A stretch of DNA of 34,562 nt from a virus. The stretch spans positions 1-34,562 of IMG/VR virus record IMGVR_UViG_3300043172_000287; one strand, 5' to 3'. Every line of letters starts with the position of its first letter. Within the stretch, counting starts at the first letter, position 1. A program made the translations under genes and the position numbers. The notes beneath the pieces are model-generated. The model was not told the origin of the DNA and searched no databases. It saw only the letters and a program-made list of their open reading frames with translations. This document shows positions 1 to 34,541 of this stretch, piece by piece.

Positions 1-1179
1 ATGGCGTACCCGTTCTTCGGGGAGCTGGTCATGAGGATGGTGATGCATGAGTCTAAGACAGCAGGGGTAGGTACTACTTGTGTGGATCACAAGGGCAACA
101 TGTACTACAACCCCGAGTGGGTCAAGGGATTCACCAGTGTGCAGGAAACGATGTTCGAGCTTGCACATGAGGTGATGCACCTTGTCCAGCGGTGTACCGT
201 GCGGTTCCCTCAAGGTGGGAACCATAGGGTATGGAACATAGCCGCTGACATCAAGGTGGATAGCATCCTCGTTGACTCAGGGCTCAAGCAATCGGCGGTG
301 AGCAAGAAGAACATCACCGATGAGCTGATGGAGAAGCACCGTGGTAAGACAACGGAGCAGATCTACTACCACCTGATGCAGAACCCCGATGAGGTTAAGT
401 CCTTTGGTGGGTGCCCTCATGAGCAGCAGGGAGAGGGTGGTGGTGAAGGCCCGAAGATAGAGCCCGGTAGCCAAGTTGGTGAACGGGGTTGCACATCGGG
501 TGCCTTGCATGGTGAGGTGCCCAACGCTGAGACAGTGGAGAAATGGAAGCAGCATGTCATCGCTGCTGCCATGAACGCGCAGAAGCGGGGCAAGGCACCG
601 GGATTCGCTGATGAATTCCTTGCCGAGATCCGCAGGCCCAGCGTCACATGGAAGGAGTACCTGAGAAGGCAGGCCACGGCTCTGTTCAGAGGTAGGTATG
701 CGTACCCACGACCGAACAGACGAACCCGTGCTATTCTCAGGGGTGCCAGCAGTCAGATGGTACTACCTACTAGGACACGTAGCCCCAACGGCGCCGTCAT
801 CTTGATGGATTGCTCAGGGTCTATCGGCGAGGACAACATGACTCAGTTCTTGTCGGAGTGTTCAGGTATTCTACGTGAGACAGGGTGCAAGTGGTTGAAG
901 GTTTACTTCCACGATGTACTATGCTACCATGTAGAGGACTTCGACCTGAAGACCATTGATAAGGTCAAGGTATCTTGGGGAGGCACATCTCATCTAGATG
1001 TGTTCGAGAAGGTTATCGAAAGTGGAGACAAGATTGGTATGGTAGTAGCCTTCACCGATCTGGAGTCGGAGTTCCCCACTGATAAGCCTCCCTTCCCGGT
1101 GCTGTGGGCTGTGCCTGAAGGGTACGAGGGACATGACTACCCTTGGGGTGACATGGTGGTGGTGAAGAATACTAAGTGA
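1..1179 (+). CDS. VWA-like metallopeptidase-domain protein (DUF2201 type), 5' end probably cut
   Basis: The N-terminal part looks like the putative metallopeptidase domain of the DUF2201 family. HEVMH at residues 56-60 is a zinc HExxH motif, preceded by the family-like PFFGELV and YYNPEW segments. The C-terminal third is a VWA-like domain with a MIDAS-type DCSGS at residues 270-274 and a later GGTSH. A Gly/Glu-rich linker at about residues 140-165 separates the halves. In bacteria such proteins usually sit beside a MoxR-type AAA+ ATPase and are thought to act as a metal-dependent chaperone or protease pair. Any such partner would lie upstream of this window. The ATG is at base 1, and relatives usually have extra residues before PFFG, so the true start may be outside. 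Family assignment is firm; the substrate is unknown. Confidence 0.8.
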   Translation: MAYPFFGELVMRMVMHESKTAGVGTTCVDHKGNMYYNPEWVKGFTSVQETMFELAHEVMHLVQRCTVRFPQGGNHRVWNIAADIKVDSILVDSGLKQSAVSKKNITDELMEKHRGKTTEQIYYHLMQNPDEVKSFGGCPHEQQGEGGGEGPKIEPGSQVGERGCTSGALHGEVPNAETVEKWKQHVIAAAMNAQKRGKAPGFADEFLAEIRRPSVTWKEYLRRQATALFRGRYAYPRPNRRTRAILRGASSQMVLPTRTRSPNGAVILMDCSGSIGEDNMTQFLSECSGILRETGCKWLKVYFHDVLCYHVEDFDLKTIDKVKVSWGGTSHLDVFEKVIESGDKIGMVVAFTDLESEFPTDKPPFPVLWAVPEGYEGHDYPWGDMVVVKNTK

Positions 1180-1427: not shown

Positions 1428-2435
1428 ATGGGAAAATGGACTACAACTAGCTTCATCGAAGCGTTCATGACTAATAGACTTGGACGCAAGAGAGTACATG
1501 GTACGTACCGTGTGCTTGAAGGCGACCACTGTAGGCTGCTGGTCAGAGCTGCTGTTGAGTATGGTAGACCAGCCGGTAGCTCACTGATGGCTATTAACCT
1601 ACAGCCAACGATCAACACTAACCCTATGGCCTTCTGGCATCATCACAACTACCATAACCTCTCGTATAGGATGAGGAGAGGGTTTAATGTGGGCCAATGG
1701 CAATCGCTACCTCAAGTAATGATGAGTGGTGAGGATGCAAACCTTATCTCATCAGGCATCATCGAGGAGGGTACTGATTGTGTATTGGTGGAGATAGGAG
1801 ATAAGCCTTACCTTATGTATAGGGCTGCGAATCCTGCTGGTGAGTACATAGATGCGTTCAAGTGGATAAAGCCTGTACCTAATAGATCGTCTAACGTCGC
1901 GGAGGCAGTAGCACAGACCAAAGATCCTGAAGGTCAAACTAATATCTGCGGTGAGTGGTGGGGTGAACCTCAAGCCTTTGACTTCATGCCACCTGTGTTT
2001 GATCCTGAGGCAGTAAAGACTATGAGTAACCCGATGAACCCTCTTGACTATGGGTTCACTATGGAGGAAGTGTACGCTGTATCCTCTGGGTATGGTGATG
2101 ATGAGATGTATAGTCTCCGTCCTAAGTCTGAGCTACTCGGCGCTCCACCTACTGCAAGGGCGGGCAACTGGCTGAGTGCCATACTCAAATGGCAGAAGGC
2201 AGCTGAGTCTTGGGAGGCTAGATCACCTACTGAGTACAAGGGATTGTCTTGTCAGACCAGCCGGTACACCACAAGGGTGGACCCTAAGACGGATGGTTCC
2301 ATACTCCGAACATCACAAGGTGTGTATGTAACAGGGAAGCTGCACTCTAAAGATACATGGGATGAGGTGTGTGTGCTAGATAGATGGCATAAGCTGATGA
2401 CCATATCCAAGCGACTCAGGGTCAACTCATGCTAG
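1428..2435 (+). CDS. Hypothetical protein, unknown function
   Basis: This is a 335-residue soluble protein with no signal peptide or membrane segment. It starts directly after the previous stop (TAAG ATG) and ends 7 bp inside the following sigma-like gene, so it belongs to the same operon. A His/Tyr-rich stretch (HHHNYHNLSYRMRR) lies near residue 75, and a Trp/Phe/Pro-rich patch near residue 185. I recognise no catalytic motif or family. Its position just before a transcription factor gene is suggestive only. Confidence 0.7.
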   Translation: MGKWTTTSFIEAFMTNRLGRKRVHGTYRVLEGDHCRLLVRAAVEYGRPAGSSLMAINLQPTINTNPMAFWHHHNYHNLSYRMRRGFNVGQWQSLPQVMMSGEDANLISSGIIEEGTDCVLVEIGDKPYLMYRAANPAGEYIDAFKWIKPVPNRSSNVAEAVAQTKDPEGQTNICGEWWGEPQAFDFMPPVFDPEAVKTMSNPMNPLDYGFTMEEVYAVSSGYGDDEMYSLRPKSELLGAPPTARAGNWLSAILKWQKAAESWEARSPTEYKGLSCQTSRYTTRVDPKTDGSILRTSQGVYVTGKLHSKDTWDEVCVLDRWHKLMTISKRLRVNSC

Positions 2436-3694
2436 CCTATAGAAATCCAAGGTATAGAGCTATGGTACGTAACAATTACTATGAGGAGGTAGCCAGGGAT
2501 CAAGTGTATCTAACAGAAGCCGAAGAGATTAGTCTAATCAGTCAGTACACAGAGCAGAAGGCTAAGCTGCATCTCTATGTCCTTGATAGGAAGAGATGTG
2601 TCACGCACTTTCTGAAGGTGTATGATGAGATCAGGGCAGCGGGTACCTCCATAGCTAAGCTGAGTGCGGAGACTAACACCCGTAAGGCAGGGCTCAACAC
2701 TATGATTGATGGTAGGTTCGATGTTCAATTGAAGGCAGCACGTTACGTGGATGCGGCAGTAGATACCAGCTGCTACCTAAGCACCACGCTGTTTGATCTG
2801 AACCTATCGAATGAGATCTATAATGAGATGCTTGCACTGTGCAAGCCCACTAAGAAACTGGATGCTATACGTGATGAGCTAAGTAGGATAGAGGATACCC
2901 TGCTGCGCTCAATGTTGATGGCTGCGTGTGAGATAGCCAAGCGTTGCTCGTCCACCATCCTGAGTATAGATGAGAAGGATGCAGCACAAGAGGCAAAGAT
3001 CTTTCTCCTTGAGTCTATCCGCAGGTACAACCCTGACTATCGGACACCCAAAGGTGAGCGGGTGAAGCTATGTACCTATGCATATGGTAGGGCAGAGCGA
3101 TTGGTCATGGAGTGGGTGCTTACTAACAGCAGGTTGGTACGTGTGCCTCGTTCAAAGATGAAGCGCATACTGATAGTAGTCAAGGCTTATGAGGGCCTCG
3201 ACTCTAGTGATACCAACCTATTCACGGTAACGAAGGAAGCTAATGCTATCATGAAGGGTCGTAAGACATTGACAGCTAACAACGCCTTCGATATCAAGGA
3301 GGTAGATGAACTCATAAAGATCTTGACAAGTAACTACATCAGGTTGGATCAGCCGTTCAATAGAAAAAGCTCAACAGGACCTCTTACTATAGGTGATATG
3401 ATTAGTAACGAGGAACCCTCTGCTGCGGATGTTCTCGAAGCAGCGGATAACAAAGAGCTACTGTTGGATGCTATGCAAGATTACCTTACTAAGCTGGAGC
3501 TACAGATCATAACACTTCGGTACTTCCATGATCCATTGGGGGATGTACCTAAGGCGTTGACTGAGATCGGTCCGTTGCTAGTGTCAGTGTATGGAGGTGT
3601 GAGCTATAGTAGAGAGACAATAAGAAAGTTCGAGAAGATAGCACTAGATAAACTGAAGGCAGTTGAGGAGGTTCAAGAACTATGGTCACTGTAA
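2429..3694 (+). CDS. Divergent sigma-70-family RNA polymerase sigma factor
   Basis: The C-terminal two thirds follow the order of a sigma-70 factor. Region 2-like sequence spans residues 155-242: DAAQEAKIFLLESIRRYNP matches the usual 'D-x-x-QEG-x-x-GLL-x-A-x-x-xF-x-P' pattern, then CTYAYGRAERLV and RLVRVPRS. A region 3 equivalent ends in IRLDQPF followed by TGPLTIGDMI, the typical 'LD-P...L-D' linker. Region 4-like sequence spans 345-412, with LELQIITLRYF, ALTEIG and SRETIRKFEKIALDKLK, the 'SRE-IRQ-E--AL-KLR' helix-turn-helix. The turn between EIG and SRET is about five residues longer than usual. The N-terminal 150 residues are unrecognised. It would bind host core RNA polymerase and redirect it to a phage promoter class. 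The start overlaps the previous gene by 7 bp. Confidence 0.75.
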   Translation: MLAYRNPRYRAMVRNNYYEEVARDQVYLTEAEEISLISQYTEQKAKLHLYVLDRKRCVTHFLKVYDEIRAAGTSIAKLSAETNTRKAGLNTMIDGRFDVQLKAARYVDAAVDTSCYLSTTLFDLNLSNEIYNEMLALCKPTKKLDAIRDELSRIEDTLLRSMLMAACEIAKRCSSTILSIDEKDAAQEAKIFLLESIRRYNPDYRTPKGERVKLCTYAYGRAERLVMEWVLTNSRLVRVPRSKMKRILIVVKAYEGLDSSDTNLFTVTKEANAIMKGRKTLTANNAFDIKEVDELIKILTSNYIRLDQPFNRKSSTGPLTIGDMISNEEPSAADVLEAADNKELLLDAMQDYLTKLELQIITLRYFHDPLGDVPKALTEIGPLLVSVYGGVSYSRETIRKFEKIALDKLKAVEEVQELWSL

Positions 3695-6300: not shown

Positions 6301-7759
6301 GTTCGATAATACCATAGCCTTGGTTAAGCCTGCCTCTGATGGTGAGCTTGAGATGTACGCCAAGGTGAGAGATCAGATAAAGACTATGGCCCCCGGTGCT
6401 AAGTACATGCACAACCATAAGCTGTACCTCCGTACCAGTGGGAAGCATGGTTGGGATGGTAAGGCAAGTGTGCTTAGTAAGCCACACCCTAGCAACAAGA
6501 GCGCCTTCTTCCCGACAGGGCTATTGCCTTACGTGTATAAACAACTGATGAGCCTGATGCCTAAAGAGGTCATCAGCTTCAGTGATCTACGCAATGTGCC
6601 CAAGGCTCAGGTAGGTAAGCTAACCGTACCTCTGTATGATTTCCAGCGGATAGCCTATGACTCAGCGATGCACAACACAGTGACTATGGGTGGCAACGTG
6701 TTCGACTGGCCGTGTGGTGTGCTGAAGATAGCTACTGGTGGTGGTAAGACAGAGCTAGCCGTTGCCATGTTCGAGACTAACCCCGTGCCTACTATATTCG
6801 TGGTGCATCGCAAGCACCTGATGAGTCAGGCTATTAGGAGATTCGCTAAGTATGGTGTGACAGCAGGACAGATAGGCGACAGTGTATTTGATCCGGACCC
6901 CAACGGTATCTCGGTGGCCACGATCCAGACACTACACAACAGGCTCAAGGAAGGGGACATGAGCAAGGTCAACCAGTTCATCAAAGCAGGGCAGATCTTC
7001 TTTGATGAGGCCCACCTGTGTGCTAGTAAGCTGGACAAGGGCAACCAGTTCATTCAGTTGAGTAGGCAGTTCCGCCATGCCTACTACCGTTGGGGTCTGA
7101 CGGCTACACCCTTCATGAAGGATGAGTACAGCAACCAATTGTTGCAGGGTGCCACGGGTGATCTACTGTGTAGTATCAGCAACGATCAGCTCATCAAGGC
7201 TGGGCACCTCACCCCACCACGGGTGGTCATCATCGACATGCCCCCGCTGGGTGGGCCTAAGAAATGGCCGGAGGTGTATGAGTCCAGCATCATGTGGAAC
7301 AAGATGCGGAACGACCGCATCATTGAGGAACTAGAGAAGTGTCCGAAGCCTGCCTTTGTGATGTGTACTAGATTAACACATGCAAGTATGCTACATACTA
7401 TGGCGGAAACAAAGGGGATTTCTCTTCCCGCAGTTCAGCACGGTAAAACTTCCCTAAAGGATAGGGATGATGTGCTGTCCAAGTTGCAGGCAGGCAAGGA
7501 AAAAGCTATAATAACAACAACCATCTACGATGATGGGGTGGATCTCCCTGATCTACGTACCCTCATCCTAGCAGGAGGAGGTAAGTCTACCGTAGCTAAC
7601 CTACAAAGGATAGGCCGTGGCCTACGTAAGGCAGCAGGCAAGCATGAGGTGCTAGTCATTGACTTCAATGACAAGACAGGTGCCATACTGAAGAGGCACA
7701 GCACGGCACGCAAGAAGGTATGGAAGGATGAAGGGTTTAACATTGAGGAGACATCATGA
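6290..7759 (+). CDS. SF2 DNA/RNA helicase, UvsW-like
   Basis: This 489-residue superfamily 2 helicase has Walker A ATGGGKT (148-154), DEAH box FFDEAH (237-242), motif III LTATPF, motif V DDGVDLPDL and motif VI QRIGRGLR (439-446). A Q-motif-like YDFQRIAYD precedes Walker A. The short N-terminal region and single two-lobe core resemble T4 UvsW/RAD25-type helicases that remodel branched DNA during recombination-dependent replication. The ATG chosen has a GAAAGAG site in front and overlaps the previous gene by 11 bp; a TTG 18 bp upstream is less likely. A promoter-like sequence lies inside the reading frame near its 3' part. Confidence 0.9.
   Translation: MKIEFDNTIALVKPASDGELEMYAKVRDQIKTMAPGAKYMHNHKLYLRTSGKHGWDGKASVLSKPHPSNKSAFFPTGLLPYVYKQLMSLMPKEVISFSDLRNVPKAQVGKLTVPLYDFQRIAYDSAMHNTVTMGGNVFDWPCGVLKIATGGGKTELAVAMFETNPVPTIFVVHRKHLMSQAIRRFAKYGVTAGQIGDSVFDPDPNGISVATIQTLHNRLKEGDMSKVNQFIKAGQIFFDEAHLCASKLDKGNQFIQLSRQFRHAYYRWGLTATPFMKDEYSNQLLQGATGDLLCSISNDQLIKAGHLTPPRVVIIDMPPLGGPKKWPEVYESSIMWNKMRNDRIIEELEKCPKPAFVMCTRLTHASMLHTMAETKGISLPAVQHGKTSLKDRDDVLSKLQAGKEKAIITTTIYDDGVDLPDLRTLILAGGGKSTVANLQRIGRGLRKAAGKHEVLVIDFNDKTGAILKRHSTARKKVWKDEGFNIEETS
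7484..7513 (+). promoter_or_regulatory. Possible intragenic promoter inside the helicase gene
   Basis: TTGCAG, an 18-bp spacer and a perfect TATAAT are preceded by the same A-tract and GC dinucleotide found at the three intergenic promoters. AAAAAAGCTATAATA is identical over 15 bases to the promoter at 19852. The bases also encode helicase residues, so this could be chance. If active, it would transcribe the GP88-domain gene and the downstream ligase block. Confidence 0.35.
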
Positions 7760-11473: not shown

Positions 11474-11502
11474 TTGCACGCACCGAAAGAAAAAGCTATA
11501 AT
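11474..11502 (+). promoter_or_regulatory. Promoter P1, sigma-70 type
   Basis: TTGCAC, a 17-bp spacer and TATAAT lie immediately after the DnaB stop codon. The spacer ends in AAAAAGC, as in the copies at 19852 and 28427, and GATATGG precedes the -35 box here and (as ATATGG) at 28421. Transcription should begin near 11509 and read through a leader hairpin into the 43-codon gene. Confidence 0.8.
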
Positions 11503-12412: not shown

Positions 12413-12780
12413 GGCGAGACAAACTGGAAAGGATCATCAAGTTGATACGTTGGAAGAAACCCAAGTGGTTCTATAAGAGGTGCAGTCAGTGTTCCGATGA
12501 TGTGAAGGATGAAAACATGTGGTACTTCAAGCAGTACTACAGCGGTTATGCAGGGTACCCTTCTCTATGCAGCAAGACATGGGTGTGTATGGAGTGTGCG
12601 CCTCGCATGTCGGATGTCATTCTGCTAAACAGTAAGTACTTCGGTGACCACTATGGTGACGTTGACCTCGCCCCTCTCGTGGATGAAGAGGAAGAAATGG
12701 CGATGCTTGTGGCTGAAGGTGCGACCTGGGGAGAGGAGGGGATCAAGCTCCTCAAGCAGGATATTGATGCCGGTGTATGA
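12409..12780 (+). CDS. Hypothetical protein with zinc-ribbon-like cysteines
   Basis: This 123-residue protein has a basic N-terminus (RRDKLERIIKLIRWKKPKW). It then has CSQC near residue 25 and CSK...CMEC near residues 54-63, a spacing that suits a four-Cys zinc ribbon. The C-terminal half is strongly acidic (VDEEEEMAML). Together this suggests a small nucleic-acid or protein adaptor; the function is unknown. The last 14 bp overlap the next gene. Confidence 0.65.
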   Translation: MRRDKLERIIKLIRWKKPKWFYKRCSQCSDDVKDENMWYFKQYYSGYAGYPSLCSKTWVCMECAPRMSDVILLNSKYFGDHYGDVDLAPLVDEEEEMAMLVAEGATWGEEGIKLLKQDIDAGV

Positions 12781-12988
12781 GTATCTATGTGACAAGGGGC
12801 ATGAGACAGAGGTGGAGCAGTCCATCAAGGATGATGCCTTGACTGAGTGCCTCTACTATACGGATAAAGAGAAGCGTCTGGCTTCGACGCACTGCGCTCA
12901 GGAGTGCGGTGCCCCGTGTCGTAGGCTGATACCTAATACCAGCTTCAAGTTCAAGGGTGGGCCTCCCACCCCGAAGTACCACACATAG
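12767..12988 (+). CDS. FmdB-like zinc-ribbon protein
   Basis: The 73-residue product begins MPVYEYLCDKGHETEVEQS and later has CAQECGAPCRRLIPNTSFKFKGGPP. This is the pattern of the FmdB zinc-ribbon family: 'MPxYEYxCxxCGxxFE', a second Cys pair, then 'F-x-F-x-GG'. The first pair is C-x3-H rather than CxxC, a mild departure. Members are tiny and often called putative regulators without a proven role. The start is inside the preceding gene, with GCAGGAT before it. Confidence 0.7.
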   Translation: MPVYEYLCDKGHETEVEQSIKDDALTECLYYTDKEKRLASTHCAQECGAPCRRLIPNTSFKFKGGPPTPKYHT

Positions 12989-12996
12989 GAGATAGC

Positions 12997-13089
12997 ATGA
13001 GCGTAACACTGAAAGATATTTGGCTGTGTCAACTGATTCAGATAGCGCAGTTTGGTATGATCATTGGCCTACTGTTGGTTAAGCTATGA
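12997..13089 (+). CDS. 30-residue membrane micropeptide
   Basis: The peptide starts MSVTLKDIWLC and ends in a hydrophobic run (FGMIIGLLLVKL), consistent with one short transmembrane helix. TAGGAGATAGC provides a ribosome site close before the ATG. Its stop overlaps the next start as ATGA. Its place in a chain of coupled genes supports it being translated; the function is unknown. Confidence 0.5.
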   Translation: MSVTLKDIWLCQLIQIAQFGMIIGLLLVKL

Positions 13090-13271
13090 GCGACCTGACA
13101 TTCGAGGTGACTGAGTTCTTTCAGGATAAGCAGCAGCGATTCGAGGCGGCACTGAAGTTTGCTACTTGCATGCGGTATGAGTTTGGTAAGCCCCTCAGTC
13201 CTATGAGTATCAAGTTCGCAGTACAGAGGGCCGACGAACTGATCGCCGAGCTGGAAGAGACAGAGAAATGA
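13086..13271 (+). CDS. Small helical protein, first of a tandem paralogous pair
   Basis: This 61-residue helical protein shares with its downstream neighbour the start MSDL, a central Q-RFEA-L, a Pro at the same relative place and a terminal A--AD---A-LE. The two are adjacent, of equal length and coupled by ATGA, which points to tandem duplication followed by divergence. This copy has an internal Cys and a basic middle (RYEFGKPLSP). The function is unknown. Confidence 0.7.
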   Translation: MSDLTFEVTEFFQDKQQRFEAALKFATCMRYEFGKPLSPMSIKFAVQRADELIAELEETEK

Positions 13272-13450
13272 GTGACCTTGAGATACTAGAGGAAATGGTA
13301 AAGGAATACCAGAAGAGCGAGCAACGATTTGAGGCAACACTGAGGATCTACCTCCAGCGTGAAGGGGGTAGGTACTCAACACCGCTGGCTAACATTCAGG
13401 ATGCTATCGAAGAGGCAGACGCAATGCTTGATGCGTTAGAAAACGAATGA
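13268..13450 (+). CDS. Small helical protein, second of a tandem paralogous pair
   Basis: This 60-residue acidic helical protein (MSDLEILEEMVKEYQKSEQR) is similar to the gene just upstream, sharing the RFEA-L core and the C-terminal I-DAIEEADAMLDALE. Both probably form helical hairpins or dimers. The stop overlaps the start of a 24-residue hydrophobic peptide. No family is recognised. Confidence 0.7.
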   Translation: MSDLEILEEMVKEYQKSEQRFEATLRIYLQREGGRYSTPLANIQDAIEEADAMLDALENE

Positions 13451-13521
13451 TTATCTTCGGGATTACACTGGTGGTGTACATATTGATGTGGGCTTTAATA
13501 TGGGGCATAGCTTGTGACTGA
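13447..13521 (+). CDS. 24-residue membrane micropeptide
   Basis: Almost the whole product is one hydrophobic helix (MIIFGITLVVYILMWALIWG), long enough to span a membrane. It is coupled to both neighbours: ATGA at its start, and its last 8 bp overlap the GTG start of the primase-like gene. No separate ribosome site is obvious, so it would rely on coupling. Confidence 0.45.
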   Translation: MIIFGITLVVYILMWALIWGIACD

Positions 13522-14359: not shown

Positions 14360-15450
14360 GCATAGTAAAAAAGCTAAGTGATATAGCAACCTATGGGGTT
14401 GACTCCTATGGTACTGAGGATGCTCTTGCCTATTTCAATACCATGGAGCACGCTAGAGGTGCAACTGATACCCTCTTGCATAGGTTTGAGGCTGATGGGT
14501 ATGGTGACGCTGTCAAGATCAATGAGGAATTGGTTAAGGTCATGGGAGATCCTGTCCTCAAGCAGGAAAACGTTGTAGATAAGACTTACTACAATGAGTA
14601 CACCGATGCCTCAACCTATATTAGGATCTACTTCAACGGAGGTGAGGATCGTGACATTCAGATCAGAGGGATCACGGCTACCCCTGCTGTATACGACAAG
14701 CTGAAGGAGATTGTCAGCACTTTTATTGACATGAAGAAGCCTTCTAACTTTGTCTTCGCTCTCATGAGTGGGCATAACGGGCTGAGCCTACGATCTGTTG
14801 GTAAGATTAACCATGACCTCGTTGTGGCCAACTACAGTAAGGAAGCTATTGAAGGCTACAAGCATATCACTGAGTGTCTCTCCTCCAAGGATCCCTGCGG
14901 TAGGCTCATCCTACTTCAAGGGGCTCCGGGTACAGGTAAGAGCTACATGATCCGGTCGTTGGTGTCGAACATCAACTCCACCTTCATTGTGGTTGGGGCA
15001 CACATGATCGCTGAGCTGTCGGGGCCTGCTATTCTCCCCGTCATCCTTCAGTGCGTGGACACTGATGATCCTAAGCCCATCACCTTCATCCTTGAAGACT
15101 CGGACATTGCCCTGTCTCATAGGAAGAACGGGGGTGTGGCTGAGCTGAGTGGACTCTTGAACCTTGGTGATGGCCTGCTTGGTGACCTGTTGGACATCAG
15201 GATACTGGCTACCACCAACGCTGAGCTGCTTGATCTGGACCCTGCTGTGGTGCGGCCGGGCCGCATGTGTCAGCACATCAAGCTTGAAGCCTTCAACCCT
15301 AAGGATGCGTCGGCTCTCTATTCTAATATGGTTAAAGGAAAAGCACTGACGCTTAGAAAGCCCACTACCTTGGCCGAGATCTACAGGATGGCCCGTGAGG
15401 ATGGGTGGGTACCGAAAGCAGAGAAGAAGGAGGTGGGACAGTACCTATGA
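14356..15450 (+). CDS. AAA+ ATPase
   Basis: This 364-residue protein has a poorly recognised N-terminal half. The AAA+ core has Walker A GAPGTGKS (189-196), Walker B ITFILEDSD (242-250), sensor 1 ATTN (285-288) and DPAVVRPGRM (295-304), the 'D-A--RPGR' arginine-finger signature. In Walker B the usual hydrophobic-DE is written ED. The core is closest to the FtsH/proteasomal-ATPase/BCS1 type. It is coupled to the primase-like gene by ATGA. It may act as a loader or remodelling factor at the replisome; no protease domain is present. Confidence 0.85.
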   Translation: MSIVKKLSDIATYGVDSYGTEDALAYFNTMEHARGATDTLLHRFEADGYGDAVKINEELVKVMGDPVLKQENVVDKTYYNEYTDASTYIRIYFNGGEDRDIQIRGITATPAVYDKLKEIVSTFIDMKKPSNFVFALMSGHNGLSLRSVGKINHDLVVANYSKEAIEGYKHITECLSSKDPCGRLILLQGAPGTGKSYMIRSLVSNINSTFIVVGAHMIAELSGPAILPVILQCVDTDDPKPITFILEDSDIALSHRKNGGVAELSGLLNLGDGLLGDLLDIRILATTNAELLDLDPAVVRPGRMCQHIKLEAFNPKDASALYSNMVKGKALTLRKPTTLAEIYRMAREDGWVPKAEKKEVGQYL

Positions 15451-19851: not shown

Positions 19852-19880
19852 TTGCACGGACCAGAGAAAAAAGCTATAAT
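19852..19880 (+). promoter_or_regulatory. Promoter P2, sigma-70 type
   Basis: TTGCAC, a 17-bp spacer ending AAAAAAGC, and TATAAT start two bases after the preceding stop codon. It has the same boxes and A-tract as P1 and P3. It should drive the ssDNA-binding protein, RecA and gp46/47 block, with a leader of about 43 nt before the next ATG. Confidence 0.8.
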
Positions 19881-28426: not shown

Positions 28427-28455
28427 TTGCACACAGTGGAAATAAAAGCTATAAT
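28427..28455 (+). promoter_or_regulatory. Promoter P3, sigma-70 type
   Basis: TTGCAC, a 17-bp spacer ending AAAAGC, and TATAAT are followed by AGTAG. ATATGG precedes the -35 box as at P1. Transcription should begin near 28462, only about a dozen bases before the DUF3310 ATG, leaving a very short leader that contains GGGAG. Confidence 0.8.
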
Positions 28456-28474: not shown

Positions 28475-28807
28475 ATGTCAGACAATGTGAACAGCCCTCC
28501 GCATTATAATCAGAGCGGTATAGAATGCATCGATGCTATCCGTTGCGCCTTAGGTGAAGAAGGTTTCGTAGCCTACTGCAAAGGCAACAACCTCAAGTAC
28601 ATCTGGAGAGCACAGCATAAGAACAATTCAGAGGAGGATCTGGAGAAGGCGGCATGGTACTCCCGTATGGCCTCAGGGGACGACCCTCGTAAAGACGCTG
28701 GATACTCTAAAGCCGTCCTCACTGGCGAAGACGCTCTGTTTGGGGAGGCAGCGATGGTACCCCCGGAGTGTGATGACCGTGTCCGAGCTGATGGGAGTAC
28801 TGGCTGA
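28475..28807 (+). CDS. DUF3310 (SaV-like) phage protein
   Basis: This 110-residue protein fits DUF3310: NSPPHYNQSGIECIDAI, then FVAYCKGNNLKYIWRAQHKN and EEDLEKAAWYSRM. The family is common in phage replication regions, sometimes labelled nucleotide kinase without good evidence. The C-terminal 40 residues are outside the domain. An upstream in-frame extension would include the promoter and is rejected. Confidence 0.82.
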   Translation: MSDNVNSPPHYNQSGIECIDAIRCALGEEGFVAYCKGNNLKYIWRAQHKNNSEEDLEKAAWYSRMASGDDPRKDAGYSKAVLTGEDALFGEAAMVPPECDDRVRADGSTG

Positions 28808-28965: not shown

Positions 28966-29440
28966 CGACAAGGACAGCTCATCTCGATGGGATACCTTCT
29001 TCATGGATATGGCTTTCCTTGTGGCATCCAAGTCCAAGGATAGGTCTGTCAAGGTAGGGTCGGTAGCTGTAGGAGAGGCCCACAATATGCTGGCCATGGG
29101 GTACAACGGCTTCGTCAGGTACGCCGATGACGATGATGATGAACGCCACCAGCGACCAGAGAAATATAATTGGACAGCCCACGCTGAGCTGAACGTAGTT
29201 TGCAACGCAGCTCGCAGCGGTACCAAGCTGTTAGATGCGACGTTGTACGTCACCGCCCACCCTTGTGTTGATTGTGCCAAAGCTATCGTACAAGCAGGGT
29301 TCAAGGAAGTGGTCATCCCTTCCAAGGAAGAAGATCCTTTCTGGAAAGCAGGGAGGTGGGGTGATTGGGAAGACAACTTCAAGAAGGCTCAGCAGATCAT
29401 GCATGAAGGGCAAGTGAGGGTCATAGATCATGTCGTTTGA
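28958..29440 (+). CDS. dCMP deaminase-like zinc enzyme
   Basis: This 160-residue cytidine/deoxycytidylate deaminase-fold protein has the catalytic HAE at residues 75-77 ([10 protein letters not shown]) and PCVDC with C103 and C106. [23 protein letters not shown] and an early [11 protein letters not shown] fit dCMP deaminase. It would convert dCMP to dUMP for dTMP synthesis. The start is the ATG overlapping the preceding small gene; the longer frame upstream belongs to that gene in another frame. Confidence 0.85.
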
Positions 29441-32400
29441 TAAGCAGGGTAACTGGGTAGGCAAGACGCAGGAAGAGGTAGATGCATTTGTGTCCTCCCT
29501 GGAGGAGGAGTCCTATACAGTACCCAAGGGGTTACAGGATCAGATCCAAGCTATGGGCATGCAGGTGCTGGAGGCGAACAGCGACCTCGTCAAGTCCAAC
29601 AAGAACACCAACCAAGCATTCCTGAGCCTTCTCGGTAAAGGTGTGAAGCCAGTGGATATCGTCCTCCCTGTCTACGGTGGGCTCCACGTCTTGATCCACT
29701 GCATCAACTCCATCCAGGCCCGTACCAACTGGCCGTACCGCCTCATCATAATAGATGACTGCTCTCCTGATGGTGCTACGCAGCTGTGGTTAGAGGAGTG
29801 GGCTAAGGTAAACCCCCAGCACACCGTCCTATTCAACAAGAAGAACCGAGGCTTCGCAGCTACAGTCAACCGAGGCATAGAGCTGGGTGATGGAGAGTAC
29901 ATCTGCGTACTCAACTCGGATGTGATTGTCACACCAGGCTGGTTATACAAGATGGTGCTGGCCCTGGAGGCAGACGAGCGTAACAAGATCGTCAACCCTT
30001 GCACCAACAACACCGCCCTCATTGGTATACCCCTCCAACCTGGGTACGACTACAACGATATGAACCGGGCACTTGAACGGCTATCCGCCCATCAATACCC
30101 GGAGATTATGCCAACAGGGTTCTGCTTCATGATGGAGCGTTCCTTGATTGATGAGATCGGAACCTTTGATGAGGGCTACGTGTCCTACGGAGAAGAGACA
30201 GACTTCTGGATGCGTACAATCACTCGCATTAGCAAAGGGATGGTGCCTAGTTGGAGAGCTGTCCTCGCTGACGACACTTACCTCTTCCATGAGAGAGGTA
30301 CATCCTTTAGCGTAATGGGAGCGGAAGAACACATGGGGTTCCGGAAGTCGGGAGCTGGGAGGTTCCATAGTATATGGCCAGGGTACAAGGCAGTGGAGAA
30401 AACGTTTAATATCGAACAGAAACTAAGGAAGCTGCGGACACCTATCTCTGATGAGTTCATCAAGAAGGTTAATCCTAAGTACAGCATTTGCTTCGTAGTG
30501 TATAGCACAGAGAATTGTGGTGGCATGAAGGTGATCGCCGACATCGTCAACTACCTAAATGAACAGAATGTAGAGGCTAAGGTAGCACACATCCGGCGAG
30601 ATCCAAAGATGAAGAGGAACGTGCTGCCTTCATTGCGGTCAGAGCCTATCGTGTTTGAAGGTGTGTCTGACTTCGTTACTAACTTCGGGGAGCGTGTGTT
30701 CAAAGAGGGGATCGTGGTCGCAGGCACCGGGGAGTTGATGCCCCCGGTTGCCTCGGTCACCCTTGATAACCCGAAGCTTACCTCTCTTCACTTCTCTCAA
30801 AGTGACGATACTTCCATCGCTCCTTCTGCTTCACTGAAGAAGAGCATCGCTGAGGCTAACAGGCTGTCTGATTACACCATCACCAACAGCAAGTGGACAG
30901 CCGCCAAGATGGCTAAGAAGCATAAAGTTAGTGGTAGTATCTCAGTAGGGTATGATGATCTGATGTTCTTCCCCCGAGGGAGAGATACAGGAGATGATAG
31001 GCCCACCATTCTGGTGTCTTTGGGAAACCAAATGTACCCCTTCAAGGGGCATGACCGCGGGGTGGATATGTGTCAACACCTCCAGAAGTTATGCAAAGAG
31101 AACAATAAAGAGATCCGGATCCTTGCTAACGGGGTCGATGCGGTGCAAGGATTTCCCTACATTGTGGGCCTGGGTATCATGTCACAAACTCGATTCGCTA
31201 AGGTTCTAGGGACCGAGGTGGATGTGTACTGTGACCCTGCCCACAACCATAGCTATGGACTACCTACCCTTGAGGCAATGGCTTCGGGTGTTGTACCTGT
31301 GTGCTGGAACAACAAGGGTGTAACTGAGTACGCCACCCATGACCTAGATGCCATCATCCTAAACAACAAGACAGCAGCCGTTGTCATGGCTGAGAGGATC
31401 TACAACCTACTGTTCAATGAGCCGAAGCGCCTTGTAGGCCTCCAGAAAGAAGGGCTGAAGACAGCAGCGAAGTTGAAGAGGCACGATGGGGTACTGAAGT
31501 TTGTTGGCCTTCTAGAGAAAACTCTTAACCTTGAGTTCATACCTAGGAAGATTGCTGTGATCACACCTCACCTCCGCAAGTACGGTGGGCCTACTACAAT
31601 CCTAGATACAGCCAATCTCTTGAGTGCCGCAGGGCATGATGTTGCCCTCTATACACAACATACCGACATTGACCCTAGTATTCAGGCGAGCTGTAAGGTT
31701 CCACTTCGAGTGGACTGGCAGGAGATCCCACCTTGTGATGTGGTGATCACTAATTCAGACAATGCATACAACGACAAGATCCATGCGATGGCGCACATCA
31801 AGAAGAAGGTGATGTTCAAGCTGTCTCACAATGAGCGGTTCAAGGATCTGGAATCTAAGTCTCTCGACCTGGGATGGGACACTATAGCTACTAGCACACA
31901 GTGGTTGCAGGATGCCTGCGAGAAGACTACTGATGGCTGGGACTACGTCCCTCACGCCGCCAAGCGTGTAGGGTGGTACCACTACGGTCATGAAGTTTTC
32001 AACTTAAATGCTCATCGTAGGCAATTCGGTGACAAAGAGAAGGGGATCACCGTTGGAACCTTGATCCATGCACACCCTTTGAAAGGTACGAACGAGGCTC
32101 TTCAAGTAATGAACGCCATCGCGCAGAAGTACCCCGGTACGGTTCGGATGGTGGGTGTTGGTGAGGTGCCTGACTTTTCGAAGAATAAGCCACCTTGGTT
32201 GAACTACATAGCCGGGGCCTCTAGAGAGGAGATGGCTATGGTTATGGCACAGGTAGACATTTGGTTGGTGGCTTCTCACACCGAGGGGCTTGGACGTATG
32301 ACACTAGAGGCCATGTCTAGTGCGTGTGCCATCGTGGCCACGGACACACAGGCTGAGTTCTTGGTAGATGGTGTGAACTGTATGCTCTCTGAGATAGGGG

Positions 32401-32555
32401 ACGTTAATGGCCTCACCAACTGTGTTGATATCTTGTACAACGATACCCCTAAGAAGGAAGGGATCATCACCGCAGGGGTGGCCACCGCCACTAAGGCAGC
32501 AGACCCCACGGAATACATACATAACTGGAACAAGATCATAGGAGATTTGTTTTAA
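29430..32555 (+). CDS. Three-domain glycosyltransferase (GT2 plus two GT4-like domains)
   Basis: This 1041-residue protein appears to hold three transferases. Residues 74-320 form a GT2 domain: [28 protein letters not shown] as the metal site and [10 protein letters not shown]. Residues 350-700 form a first GT-B domain with [18 protein letters not shown] and [14 protein letters not shown], where the first Glu of the usual E-x7-E is His607. Residues 707-1041 form a second GT-B domain with KYGGPTTIL and [14 protein letters not shown] (E952, E960). It could build a short glycan on phage DNA, virion proteins or a host target. It overlaps the deaminase gene by 11 bp. Confidence 0.85.
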
Positions 32556-32737
32556 TGAGCTACACGAAAGAAAAGATGATCGACCTAATCGAACAGGCAG
32601 TCATTGACGCACCGGAAGGGCAGTTTGTAGATGTAGAGCAGGCACTAAAGGTGATAGCGTCGGCAGCTAACTACTTATTCTCCCAATGCGAAGGGGCACA
32701 CGTCAAGGATGGATCCGAGACTGAGACTACTGATTGA
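32555..32737 (+). CDS. Small hypothetical protein
   Basis: This 60-residue acidic helical protein ([19 protein letters not shown] at the start) is coupled to the large glycosyltransferase by TAATG, with AGGAG about 11 bp upstream. A Thr/Glu/Asp-rich tail follows the helices. It is not recognised. Confidence 0.6.
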   Translation: MSYTKEKMIDLIEQAVIDAPEGQFVDVEQALKVIASAANYLFSQCEGAHVKDGSETETTD

Positions 32738-32894
32738 TGACGCACGTCGTAGACACATCCCTCTGTTTAATAGGCCTTGCTATGGGGGCGACGAGGCAGA
32801 GGCGTATTGTCAAGGGTGCAAGGGGCTGGAGTTTGATTGCCCTGTCCTCAAGGCAGCGAAGGAGCTAGAAGATGAGTACGACAAGAGCAGTTAG
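32709..32894 (+). CDS. Small hypothetical protein with Cys motif
   Basis: This 61-residue protein has RRHIPLFNRPCYGG, then YCQGCKGLEFDCPVL, three or four cysteines that could form a small zinc site. It overlaps the previous gene by 29 bp and the next by 23 bp, both in different frames. It is supported mainly by the Cys pattern and by filling the otherwise empty interval. Confidence 0.55.
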   Translation: MDPRLRLLIDDARRRHIPLFNRPCYGGDEAEAYCQGCKGLEFDCPVLKAAKELEDEYDKSS

Positions 32895-33621
32895 CATCTG
32901 CACATACAACCGTTCGGATACTCTCCGTGAGGTTATCAGCGGCGTACTGAGTACAGTACCTGAGGGTACAGATGTGTTCGTGTGCGACGACGGGAGTACA
33001 GATTCTACCTCCGACACAGTAGCAGAGTTCGAAGGTGTACACTACTACCGAGGCCCCAACAAGGGGGTGGGTGCCAACAAGACACGCGCCCTCTACCTCA
33101 TGAAGAACCACCACTTCAGCTGCATCCTTGAGGATGACCTCGTACCGACGGAGAAGAATTGGTTTGAGACCTACGAGACAGCCTCCACGCTGACGGATAT
33201 ACACCATTTCTGCCGTGTTCAGAACAAAGAAGTACCTGAGACTTTGAGTGGGTTTACGGATTACATGAAGCAGACCATGAGTGTCACCCCTATCTACGGC
33301 TCCAGCCCTAGAGGAGACATGACATTCCTAACGAGGCGCGTTATCACTACGGTTGGTGGTATGAACCCCTTGTTCCAGGGTGTCGGGTATGCCCATGGTG
33401 AATGGTCGAATCGGGTATGGAAGGCAGGGCTCATCTCTCACCCACTCAAGTGGGTAGACATCGCCGAAGCACGCGACAAGTTTAAGCAGCTAGGAGATAC
33501 AGAAGGTGGGCGGTGGGACGATGATCGAGATAAGATCGAGAAGCAGCTCCAGTACAACAAGAGAGTGGCTAGTAATCTAGAGAAACAAGATGATATCTAC
33601 TGCCCCCTGAGGCTCAGCTGA
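32872..33621 (+). CDS. GT2-family glycosyltransferase
   Basis: This 249-residue single-domain GT-A enzyme has SICTYNRSDTLREV at the N-terminus, VCDDGSTDST (38-46) and a metal-binding CILEDDLVP with E87-D88-D89. The C-terminal half, with a Trp/Gly-rich GVGYAHGEWSNRVWKAG, probably binds the acceptor. It is the second transferase of the cluster and touches the third at its stop (TGATGG). Confidence 0.82.
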   Translation: MSTTRAVSICTYNRSDTLREVISGVLSTVPEGTDVFVCDDGSTDSTSDTVAEFEGVHYYRGPNKGVGANKTRALYLMKNHHFSCILEDDLVPTEKNWFETYETASTLTDIHHFCRVQNKEVPETLSGFTDYMKQTMSVTPIYGSSPRGDMTFLTRRVITTVGGMNPLFQGVGYAHGEWSNRVWKAGLISHPLKWVDIAEARDKFKQLGDTEGGRWDDDRDKIEKQLQYNKRVASNLEKQDDIYCPLRLS

Positions 33622-34541
33622 TGGCTAACATCATACTAGGGTACAGGAAGGTGTTCGACAAGAGAGGCGAGGAGGTCATGACGTACTCCAATAGTACCGT
33701 GAAGGCGCTTCTAGACCAGGGACACGTTGTTACTCCTATGGGTGAAGGTCATCCTCTTGCTTCCTTCAAAAGTATAGCCACTTCTGCTCTAACGAACTAC
33801 GACTTCTTCCTCGACCTTGACTGCGGGCGAAACAAGAAAGGCGACTTAGCCTTTCAGACTGAGAAGACACCAATTCCCTCAGCGGTGAGGTATATCGACA
33901 CCCACGGACACCCCTCCTTACACAAGCGGCTGGCCAAGAACTACGATCATGTCTTCTTCGCCGTGTGGGACAAGCGGGACATCTTCACGAACCACCCTTC
34001 AACCCACTGGTGCCCCAATGCCAGTGATGCCCAATACTTCTACAAGGATGTTCTACCTATCGCTCAGCATGAGGCCCGTCCCTTTGACATTGGGTTCTTT
34101 GGTAGTAAGGGAGGAATAGATAGAGCCGATGTCCTTGAAGATATGTGTAAGCGGCACTCATGGCTAAAGGATGTACGAGAGATAGGGAAGAATGGGCAAC
34201 GATGGCCCCGTACTTCAGAAGCTATGGCCCTATGCAAGGTATTGTTCAACCGCGGACAGAAGCACGATGGCCCCAACCAGCGTGTGATCGAGAGTATGTT
34301 GATGGGGCGTCCTCTGGTATCAGATAGTGATCCGAGGGACGGTATGAAGAAGCTGTTTGAAGAGGGTACGCACTACCTCAGCTACAGGACTGACGCAGAG
34401 CTAGCCGACAACTTAGGCTGGTGCCTTCGCGAGCCTTCGTTGGCCGCGTCTATGGCTCATCGAGCGTATGAACTGGCATACGAGAAGCATCAGGTGAAGC
34501 ATAGAGTAGAGCAGATACTGGAGGTGTGTGGTGTCAAGTGA
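33621..34541 (+). CDS. GT-B glycosyltransferase, CgeB-like
   Basis: This 306-residue protein ends in a GT-B C-lobe of the CgeB/group 1 type: FDIGFFGSKGG (155-165), LFNRGQKHDGPNQRVIESM (E224), MGRPLVSDSDP and FEEGTHYLSYRTDAELAD, with a closing YEKHQVKHRVEQIL. The N-terminal lobe has LDLDCGRNKKGD. Such proteins transfer sugars from nucleotide donors. The lobe order and length are complete. It follows the GT2 gene directly. Confidence 0.8.
   Translation: MANIILGYRKVFDKRGEEVMTYSNSTVKALLDQGHVVTPMGEGHPLASFKSIATSALTNYDFFLDLDCGRNKKGDLAFQTEKTPIPSAVRYIDTHGHPSLHKRLAKNYDHVFFAVWDKRDIFTNHPSTHWCPNASDAQYFYKDVLPIAQHEARPFDIGFFGSKGGIDRADVLEDMCKRHSWLKDVREIGKNGQRWPRTSEAMALCKVLFNRGQKHDGPNQRVIESMLMGRPLVSDSDPRDGMKKLFEEGTHYLSYRTDAELADNLGWCLREPSLAASMAHRAYELAYEKHQVKHRVEQILEVCGVK

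Follow-up and report, generated by a model that had tools for sequence, protein, structure and literature searches.

The sigma gene, its neighbours and its relatives

The window analysed here is the whole of a 34,562-base IMG/VR record, a phage fragment whose plus strand bears its recognised genes: helicases, a DNA ligase, a DNA polymerase, a ssDNA-binding protein, a UvsX-like recombinase, SbcCD-like proteins, a dCMP deaminase and glycosyltransferases, with glycosyltransferase-type proteins of 1041, 249 and 306 aa at the window end (29430-34541). Among the part of the gene set that was searched, no phage RNA polymerase was found. The first gene (1-1179, plus strand) belongs to a family labelled 'HNH endonuclease' in PHROGs (phrog_1314, 1.5e-64), whereas Pfam recognizes a putative metallopeptidase and a VWA-like domain (DUF2201), and the PHROG label looks wrong. 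This gene is part of a sigma-gene neighbourhood that is conserved in relatives, in which an AAA ATPase gene also lies near its homologue. It is followed on the same strand by a gene for a 335-aa protein (1428-2435) with no match in PHROGs or Pfam, which overlaps the start of the sigma gene by 7 nt and stays adjacent to it in the relatives; we regard its product as a candidate partner of the sigma.

The sigma gene itself (2429-3694, plus strand) starts with ATG and encodes a genuine, divergent sigma-70-family protein of 421 aa. The first-pass annotation had recognized in it the motifs of sigma-70 regions 2, 3 and 4, and this reading is borne out by the searches. The motifs occur in the sigma order (VRVPRSK at residues 237-243, LDQPF at 306-310 and SRETIRKFEKIAL at 394-406) and are retained in six relatives; the best family match is PHROG 351 'RNA polymerase sigma factor' (E=3.4e-18, residues 169-414), which is matched by all six members of the family alignment. 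Of 11 NCBIfam models that match the protein, 10 are sigma models, all scoring under their curated cut-offs, with sigma-32 (5.3e-11) as the best match and the sigma70-ECF superfamily at 1.5e-8. Pfam finds Sigma70_r4 alone, which scores 16.8 bits where 24.1 are required; this region 4 model (PF04545) matches five of six members of the family alignment (best E=0.0014), the window member being under the gathering score, and the family profile matches region 4 of SigA/RpoD. Homology of regions 2.1-2.4 to sigma-70 is thus indicated by PHROG 351, the NCBIfam superfamily and the fold, and the helix-turn-helix of region 4 is recognizable in the sequence. Membership in two other branches was considered and rejected: for RpoH (sigma-32), TIGR02392 scores 42.4 bits against a curated 323.1, and for the ECF sigmas (group 4), which have sigma2 and sigma4 only, TIGR02937 scores 34.5 bits against 42.9, and the protein has helices of region 3 as well as a segment resembling region 1.2.

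Relatives of this protein were found in IMG/VR contigs. A first single-sequence search detected no sigma relative; no match was obtained with tblastn against 50,697 phage records, either for the window sigma (E<=1e-3) or for the relative L021 (E<=1), nor with blastn against phage DNA, and a pattern scan of GTDB contigs with the family alignment likewise detected no relative. However, 16 IMG/VR contigs were reached via the DNA polymerase, five of which carry the sigma gene, and an alignment scan added one more. The six encoded proteins are 48-61% identical to the window protein, and pattern and alignment scans detected the gene nowhere beyond these six contigs and the window. Two of the contigs, G015 (119,599 b) and G006 (119,470 b), are similar in size, each is permuted and inverted relative to the other, and the two ends of G015 have about 33 bases in common, from which we infer that they are near-complete genomes. 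In G015 the virion genes (portal, terminase, major head and internal virion proteins according to PHROGs) occupy the minus strand at 93-119.6 kb and 1-28 kb, and the homologues of the window replication genes lie on the plus strand. An 87-kb contig, G027, lacks both the sigma gene and the TTGCA sites described below; since no homologue of the sigma neighbourhood was seen there upstream of the helicase, it is unusable as a negative control.

Domain architecture and specificity residues

A structure model built from the seven-sequence alignment (mean pLDDT 69) agrees with the sigma fold implied by the first-pass annotation: Foldseek matches it to E. coli sigma-70 with E=7.9e-7, and 87 matches have E<=0.001. 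Region 4 and its linker are of low confidence in the model (region 4 pLDDT blocks of about 40-59); support for the sigma4 domain comes mainly from the sequence, because this part is poorly predicted. Regions 2.1-2.4 (residues ~152-233, positions 2882-3127) are delimited by NCBIfam and profile alignments. They are followed by region 3.0 (residues ~234-256, beginning SRLVRVPRSK, positions 3128-3196), placed by alignment and containing a helix at 241-255 in the model, and by region 4 (residues ~345-412, positions 3461-3664), placed by Pfam and alignments.

The part preceding region 2 had been described as an unusual N-terminus of ~150 residues. It is indeed present, but it is not without precedent, as it is best read as a region 1.2-like segment (residues ~17-46, positions 2477-2566, from profile and structural alignment) and an NCR-like helical insert between regions 1.2 and 2.1 (residues ~47-141, positions 2567-2851, from superposition). 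The full-length profile aligns with 81 RpoDs in hhalign colinearly, from residues 16-419 to E. coli 100-608 (P=0.0011), and the structural alignment pairs residue 13 with E. coli 96-97, in region 1.2. With residues 1-50 alone, hhalign did not find region 1.2, and with the insert alone against the RpoD NCR it gave P=0.07, short of significance. Folded separately, residues 1-239 reach a pLDDT of 81, and 215 of these 239 residues can be superposed, with an rmsd of 3.3-3.6 A, on residues 94-452 of E. coli sigma-70, a span that takes in the NCR. The number of superposed residues drops to 134-147 on sigmas that lack the NCR (Streptomyces, Mycobacterium, Thermus) and on some of the shorter chains from E. 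coli, where the NCR was probably left unmodelled; on Caulobacter sigma-70 domain 2, 196 residues superpose at 3.0 A. The predicted N-terminus therefore looks like region 1.2 followed by a shortened NCR of the proteobacterial RpoD type, as suggested by the structure model and weakly by the sequence. It is possible that a bias of the predictor toward the well-known sigma-70 fold is the source of the likeness to the NCR. As for membership in group 1 (RpoD), region 1.2 is found in both the full-length profile and the structural alignment, and region 1.1 is lacking, with only about 16 residues preceding region 1.2.

R395, E396 and R399, invariant in all seven family members, align in two alignments with E. 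coli R584, E585 and R588, and R224 of the window sigma aligns with E. coli Q437; the E. coli numbering of the aligned residues (including R584) was checked. In sigma-70, R584, E585 and R588 exert their effect on the -35 element at positions -31 and -33, and Q437 does so at -12 (PMC2613000). The aromatic pair W433/W434 is missing, being replaced by G/S220 and R221 in 7/7 members. The longer turn noted for region 4 is also real: in the helix-turn-helix of region 4.2, G381 to R395 span 14 residues compared with seven in E. coli RpoD, the elongated turn (residues 382-394, positions 3572-3610, from two alignments) is long in every one of the seven members, and in the L019 member it exceeds that of RpoD by 12 residues.

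Two classes of TTGCA promoter-like sites

Generic scans of the window for consensus promoters gave counts below those in shuffles (17 vs 20.9, and 10 vs 16.7) and hence lend no support to any promoter; the signal came from the relatives, where a repeated element was found in orthologous non-coding gaps of G015 and G006. When all 10-mers of both genomes were counted, with reverse complements and shifted copies merged, the commonest were AAGCTATAAT (15 occurrences) and TTCCTATAAT (14); in simulations such words average 0.05-0.16 copies per genome, and no third promoter-like word was seen among the top 10-mers. Both lie 17 bases past TTGCA plus one base, which gives the architecture TTGCA-N17-TATAAT; at this spacing, TTGCAA occurs 20 times and TTGCAC five times in the window, G015 and G006 together. 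The repeated early-region words TGCTGAGGG/TCTATGCTG were rejected as promoters, as they are a coding repeat in G006. In the same genome, positions 80059-80311 (L044, minus strand) comprise a 21-base coding repeat of about 13 copies that yields a repetitive protein.

The sites fall into two classes, which are linked to different gene arms. The late class, TTCC-TATAAT-TA, precedes virion genes, and the middle class, with an A-rich run followed by GC, CA or CC before TATAAT, precedes replication genes. Because separate weight matrices for the two classes merged into one family on iteration, we used a matrix scan in which positions -18 to -13 and the 3' flank were masked, so that the classes were not predefined. 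It detected 68 sites in 41 contigs (965,785 bases) compared with eight in 820,893 simulated bases. The late signature (CC at -14/-13 and TATAAT-TA) is present at 19 of 23 virion-arm sites and one of 39 replication-arm sites (p=3.8e-11), or at 8/12 versus 1/15 when the sites are collapsed by downstream gene (p=0.0027); the other six of the 68 sites are in other or unmapped contexts. A second promoter motif upstream of virion genes, for which the first-pass annotation had suggested a search, does exist in the relatives as a distinct class. Of the four exceptions in the virion arm, three are junction sites that stand in tandem with a late site and the fourth belongs to a G015 gene after the major capsid gene; in the replication arm, the sole site with the late signature (L006, 1844) reads TATAAC, and its gene is only weakly matched. 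Five of the 39 replication-arm rows score under 16, without TTGCA at the -35 place or without TATAAT, and are probably chance occurrences.

Several individual genes in the virion arm are associated with such sites. The G015 gene after the major capsid gene (L039, 111488-112066) is HNH-like by eye and has its own middle-class promoter-like site, which is absent at that place in G006. A tyrosine-recombinase-like gene, also recognized by eye (L034, G015 12734-13513), lies in an opposite-orientation island of the virion arm, has a middle-class promoter-like site and has homologues in G025 and G027. At 14761-14955 in the same G015 locus, a small protein with a helix-turn-helix (by eye) starts 17 bases after a late-class site, and a protein of the same type, with a weak match to region 4 of PHROG 351, stands directly behind a late-class site in G025 (L103, about 47.5 kb). 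This small protein is a possible late regulator.

The window contains four middle-class sites, all on the plus strand; late-class sites are absent, which fits a replication arm. The first (7484-7512, TTGCA-N17-TATAAT with GC at -14/-13) lies within the coding sequence of a helicase, before the gene at 7756, and occupies the equivalent position in G015, G006, G003, G010, G011 and G046. The others follow a DnaB-like helicase gene (11474-11502), precede the ssDNA-binding protein gene (19852-19880), a region whose orthologs have sites in 11 other contigs, and precede the ATG at 28475 (28427-28455). These near-consensus sites, whose -10 elements end at 7512, 11502, 19880 and 28455, had been described as consensus promoters from which a possible late class would be distinct. 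They are not host consensus promoters, as their -35 element is TTGCA followed by C or G rather than TTGACA; because they have this element, form one family with the late class and are located downstream of the sigma gene, they are themselves likely targets of the phage sigma.

The order of sites around the sigma gene is regular. We counted sites on the sigma strand that score 16 or more and map as 'repl' or 'unmapped', leaving out the opposite-orientation island sites (class 'other', five rows); in the seven sigma-bearing contigs, 22 of the 25 replication-arm TTGCA sites so defined are downstream of the sigma gene. The remaining three are copies of a single orthologous site, which lies upstream of the sigma gene at the junction between early and late regions; since it is of the TTGCA type, the promoters on the early side are not all host-type. 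The host-type pattern TTGACA-N13..15-TGN-(C/T)ANNNT occurs eight times in the 18 contigs scanned, always in sigma-bearing contigs, on the same strand as the sigma gene and at a distance of 3.8-13.6 kb upstream: three times in G011, twice in G010 and once each in G015, G006 and G003; the window, with just 2.4 kb upstream of the gene, has none. With 0.05-0.7 such sites per simulated contig, the counts in G010 and G011 stand out; the single sites of G015 and G006 do not exceed what simulations give (means of 0.7 and 0.3), although the two are orthologous, and the single G003 site may be due to chance. A strict TTGACA...TATAAT scan of G015 and G006 was rejected as evidence for host promoters, its counts being near those of the simulation and partly representing the TTGCAA sites again.

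The bases before TATAAT at middle sites differ between lineages. They are GC in the window, G015, G006, G003, L005, G040 and G046, CA in G010, G011, G013, L008 and L017, and CC in L003, L006 and L009; G010 has CC instead of CA at its three junction-region sites. The more distant relative G025 (L101-L103) has ten GG-TATAAT-TAGGAAG sites with an A-rich spacer and, in most, a TGCYT-like -35. At position 224 of the sigma, the five GC-lineage sequences all have R and the two CA-lineage sequences have Q or N, and within the region 2.4 helix (214-233) the two groups differ only at 224 and 226. Over the whole protein, they differ at 73 of 421 positions, at 21 of which the GC group is invariant. The covariation of residue 224 with -14/-13 amounts to one evolutionary event and may be taken as a lead.

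A putative three-step transcription programme and its relation to known systems

We propose that the protein is an alternative sigma that redirects the host core RNA polymerase in a programme of three steps, in which host sigma-70 would read the early promoters and the phage sigma both the middle and the late TTGCA promoters; from the comparisons above we consider this scenario probable, though far from assured. In the first step, host sigma-70 would use the few TTGACA...TGn promoters upstream of the sigma operon, so that the sigma is made early. In the second step, the phage sigma would bind the host core polymerase via regions 1.2 and 2.1-2.2 and the NCR-like insert, and its extended region 4.2 helix-turn-helix would read the TTGCA -35, 17 bases from a TATAAT -10 read by region 2. 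In the third step, the middle class would serve the replication genes, including those behind the four window sites, and the late class the virion genes. Such a scheme, in which transcription by host sigma-70 supplies the phage sigma and this then opens the TTGCA promoters, would produce the site order observed. The invariant counterparts of R584, E585 and R588 and the phiEco32-like layout discussed below also speak for it. On the other hand, the replacement of W433/W434, the small number of TTGACA-TGn sites, the TTGCA-type junction site upstream of the sigma gene, the CC at the junction-region sites of G010 and the possibility that host sigma-70 recognizes TTGCA...TATAAT sites count against the model.

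How one sigma might discriminate between the two classes is a matter on which we can offer only a tentative suggestion. According to PMC7403470, the NCR of sigma-70 touches -16/-17. The phage sigma, with a putative RpoD-like NCR, might read both classes and tell them apart at -18 to -13 and just after the -10 element, possibly with the help of the NCR-like domain, and the dinucleotide (GC, CA, CC or GG) would change between lineages together with residue 224.

In the picture closest to that of the first-pass annotation, the phage sigma would be confined to the late class, TTCC-TATAAT-TA, and host sigma-70 would take the middle TTGCA...GC-TATAAT sites. In its favour, the late class stands clearly apart and is tied to virion genes, and the middle sites have a perfect TATAAT with, in the GC lineages, G at -14. 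However, TTGCA at 17-base spacing is common to both classes, unlike the TTGACA-TGn set upstream of the sigma gene, and at middle sites -14/-13 varies by lineage (GC, CA, CC) while TTGCA and TATAAT remain constant, and we therefore consider this division of labour unlikely. Conversely, the sigma could read the middle class only, the late promoters being left to host sigma-70, or to the sigma together with an extra late factor such as the helix-turn-helix protein of G015, the gene of which begins so close behind a late-class site. This idea agrees with the way in which residue 224, the counterpart of Q437, changes along with the middle class between the GC and CA lineages, but that covariation is a single event among the many positions that separate the groups, the late sites share the same TTGCA -35, and the late class drifts too, having GG at -14/-13 in G025; we find this variant improbable. 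Finally, host sigma-70 might read all TTGCA sites, since TATAAT is the host -10 consensus and TTGCAA keeps 4/6 bases of TTGACA, with the phage sigma reading something else or competing with host sigma, but the strict GCA core at -35, the clean order downstream of the sigma gene and the lack of a third promoter-like word among the top 10-mers make this very improbable.

If the three-step scenario is correct, what was an isolated gene call becomes part of a transcription programme for a phage clade of which the phage records searched contain no isolate. Our literature searches listed no report of this sigma/promoter system. The lineages provide natural pairs of sigma and promoter with differing extended -10 elements, which offer a readout of region 2.4/3.0 against the bases upstream of TATAAT. 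If the assignment of the NCR-like domain is true, this phage sigma would also be a useful comparison for the role of the NCR in RpoD.

Other phages also encode sigma-type specificity factors for their middle or late genes, among them gp55 of T4, which acts with gp33 and gp45 at TATAAATA, and gp28 and gp34 of SPO1, which are small. Among the families that we compared, PHROG 351 covers only regions 2-4 of the window sigma and leaves the N-terminal ~150 residues uncovered. The likeness to E. coli RpoD is more extensive, comprising the same order of regions, a full-length profile alignment and a structural match over regions 1.2, NCR and 2. The window sigma differs from RpoD in several ways: its N-terminus is too short for a region 1.1, its NCR-like insert is shorter (~95 residues), the W433/W434 pair is missing and the region 4.2 turn is longer by seven residues, and it would read TTGCA instead of TTGACA.

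The closest parallel in strategy is offered by phages phiEco32 and 7-11, in which, like in the system proposed here, a phage sigma acts on the host core polymerase and host sigma-70 serves the early promoters, and in which the early/middle and the late genes occupy opposite strands. According to PMC8948821, in phiEco32 host sigma-70 reads the early promoters and the phage sigma gp36 reads the late and at least some middle ones. The layout of G015 and G006, with a phage sigma and with early/middle and late arms on opposite strands, is also of the phiEco32 type, as that source outlines it. The promoters are different: tAATGTAtA in phiEco32 and GTAAtg-16-aCTA for 7-11 gp47 (PMC8948821, PMC4331800), compared with TTGCA-17-TATAAT here. 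In the case of 7-11, the motif computed in 2015 (PMC4331800) differs from that established by experiment in 2022 (PMC8948821), and this replacement cautions against motif-only reasoning in our case. In phiEco32, as described there, middle and late promoters share one motif, whereas here two subclasses of TTGCA-17-TATAAT are present, and gp36 is said to lack homology to region 4, which the window sigma possesses. By analogy, the phage clade described here appears to pursue the same strategy as phiEco32, with a different protein and different promoters.
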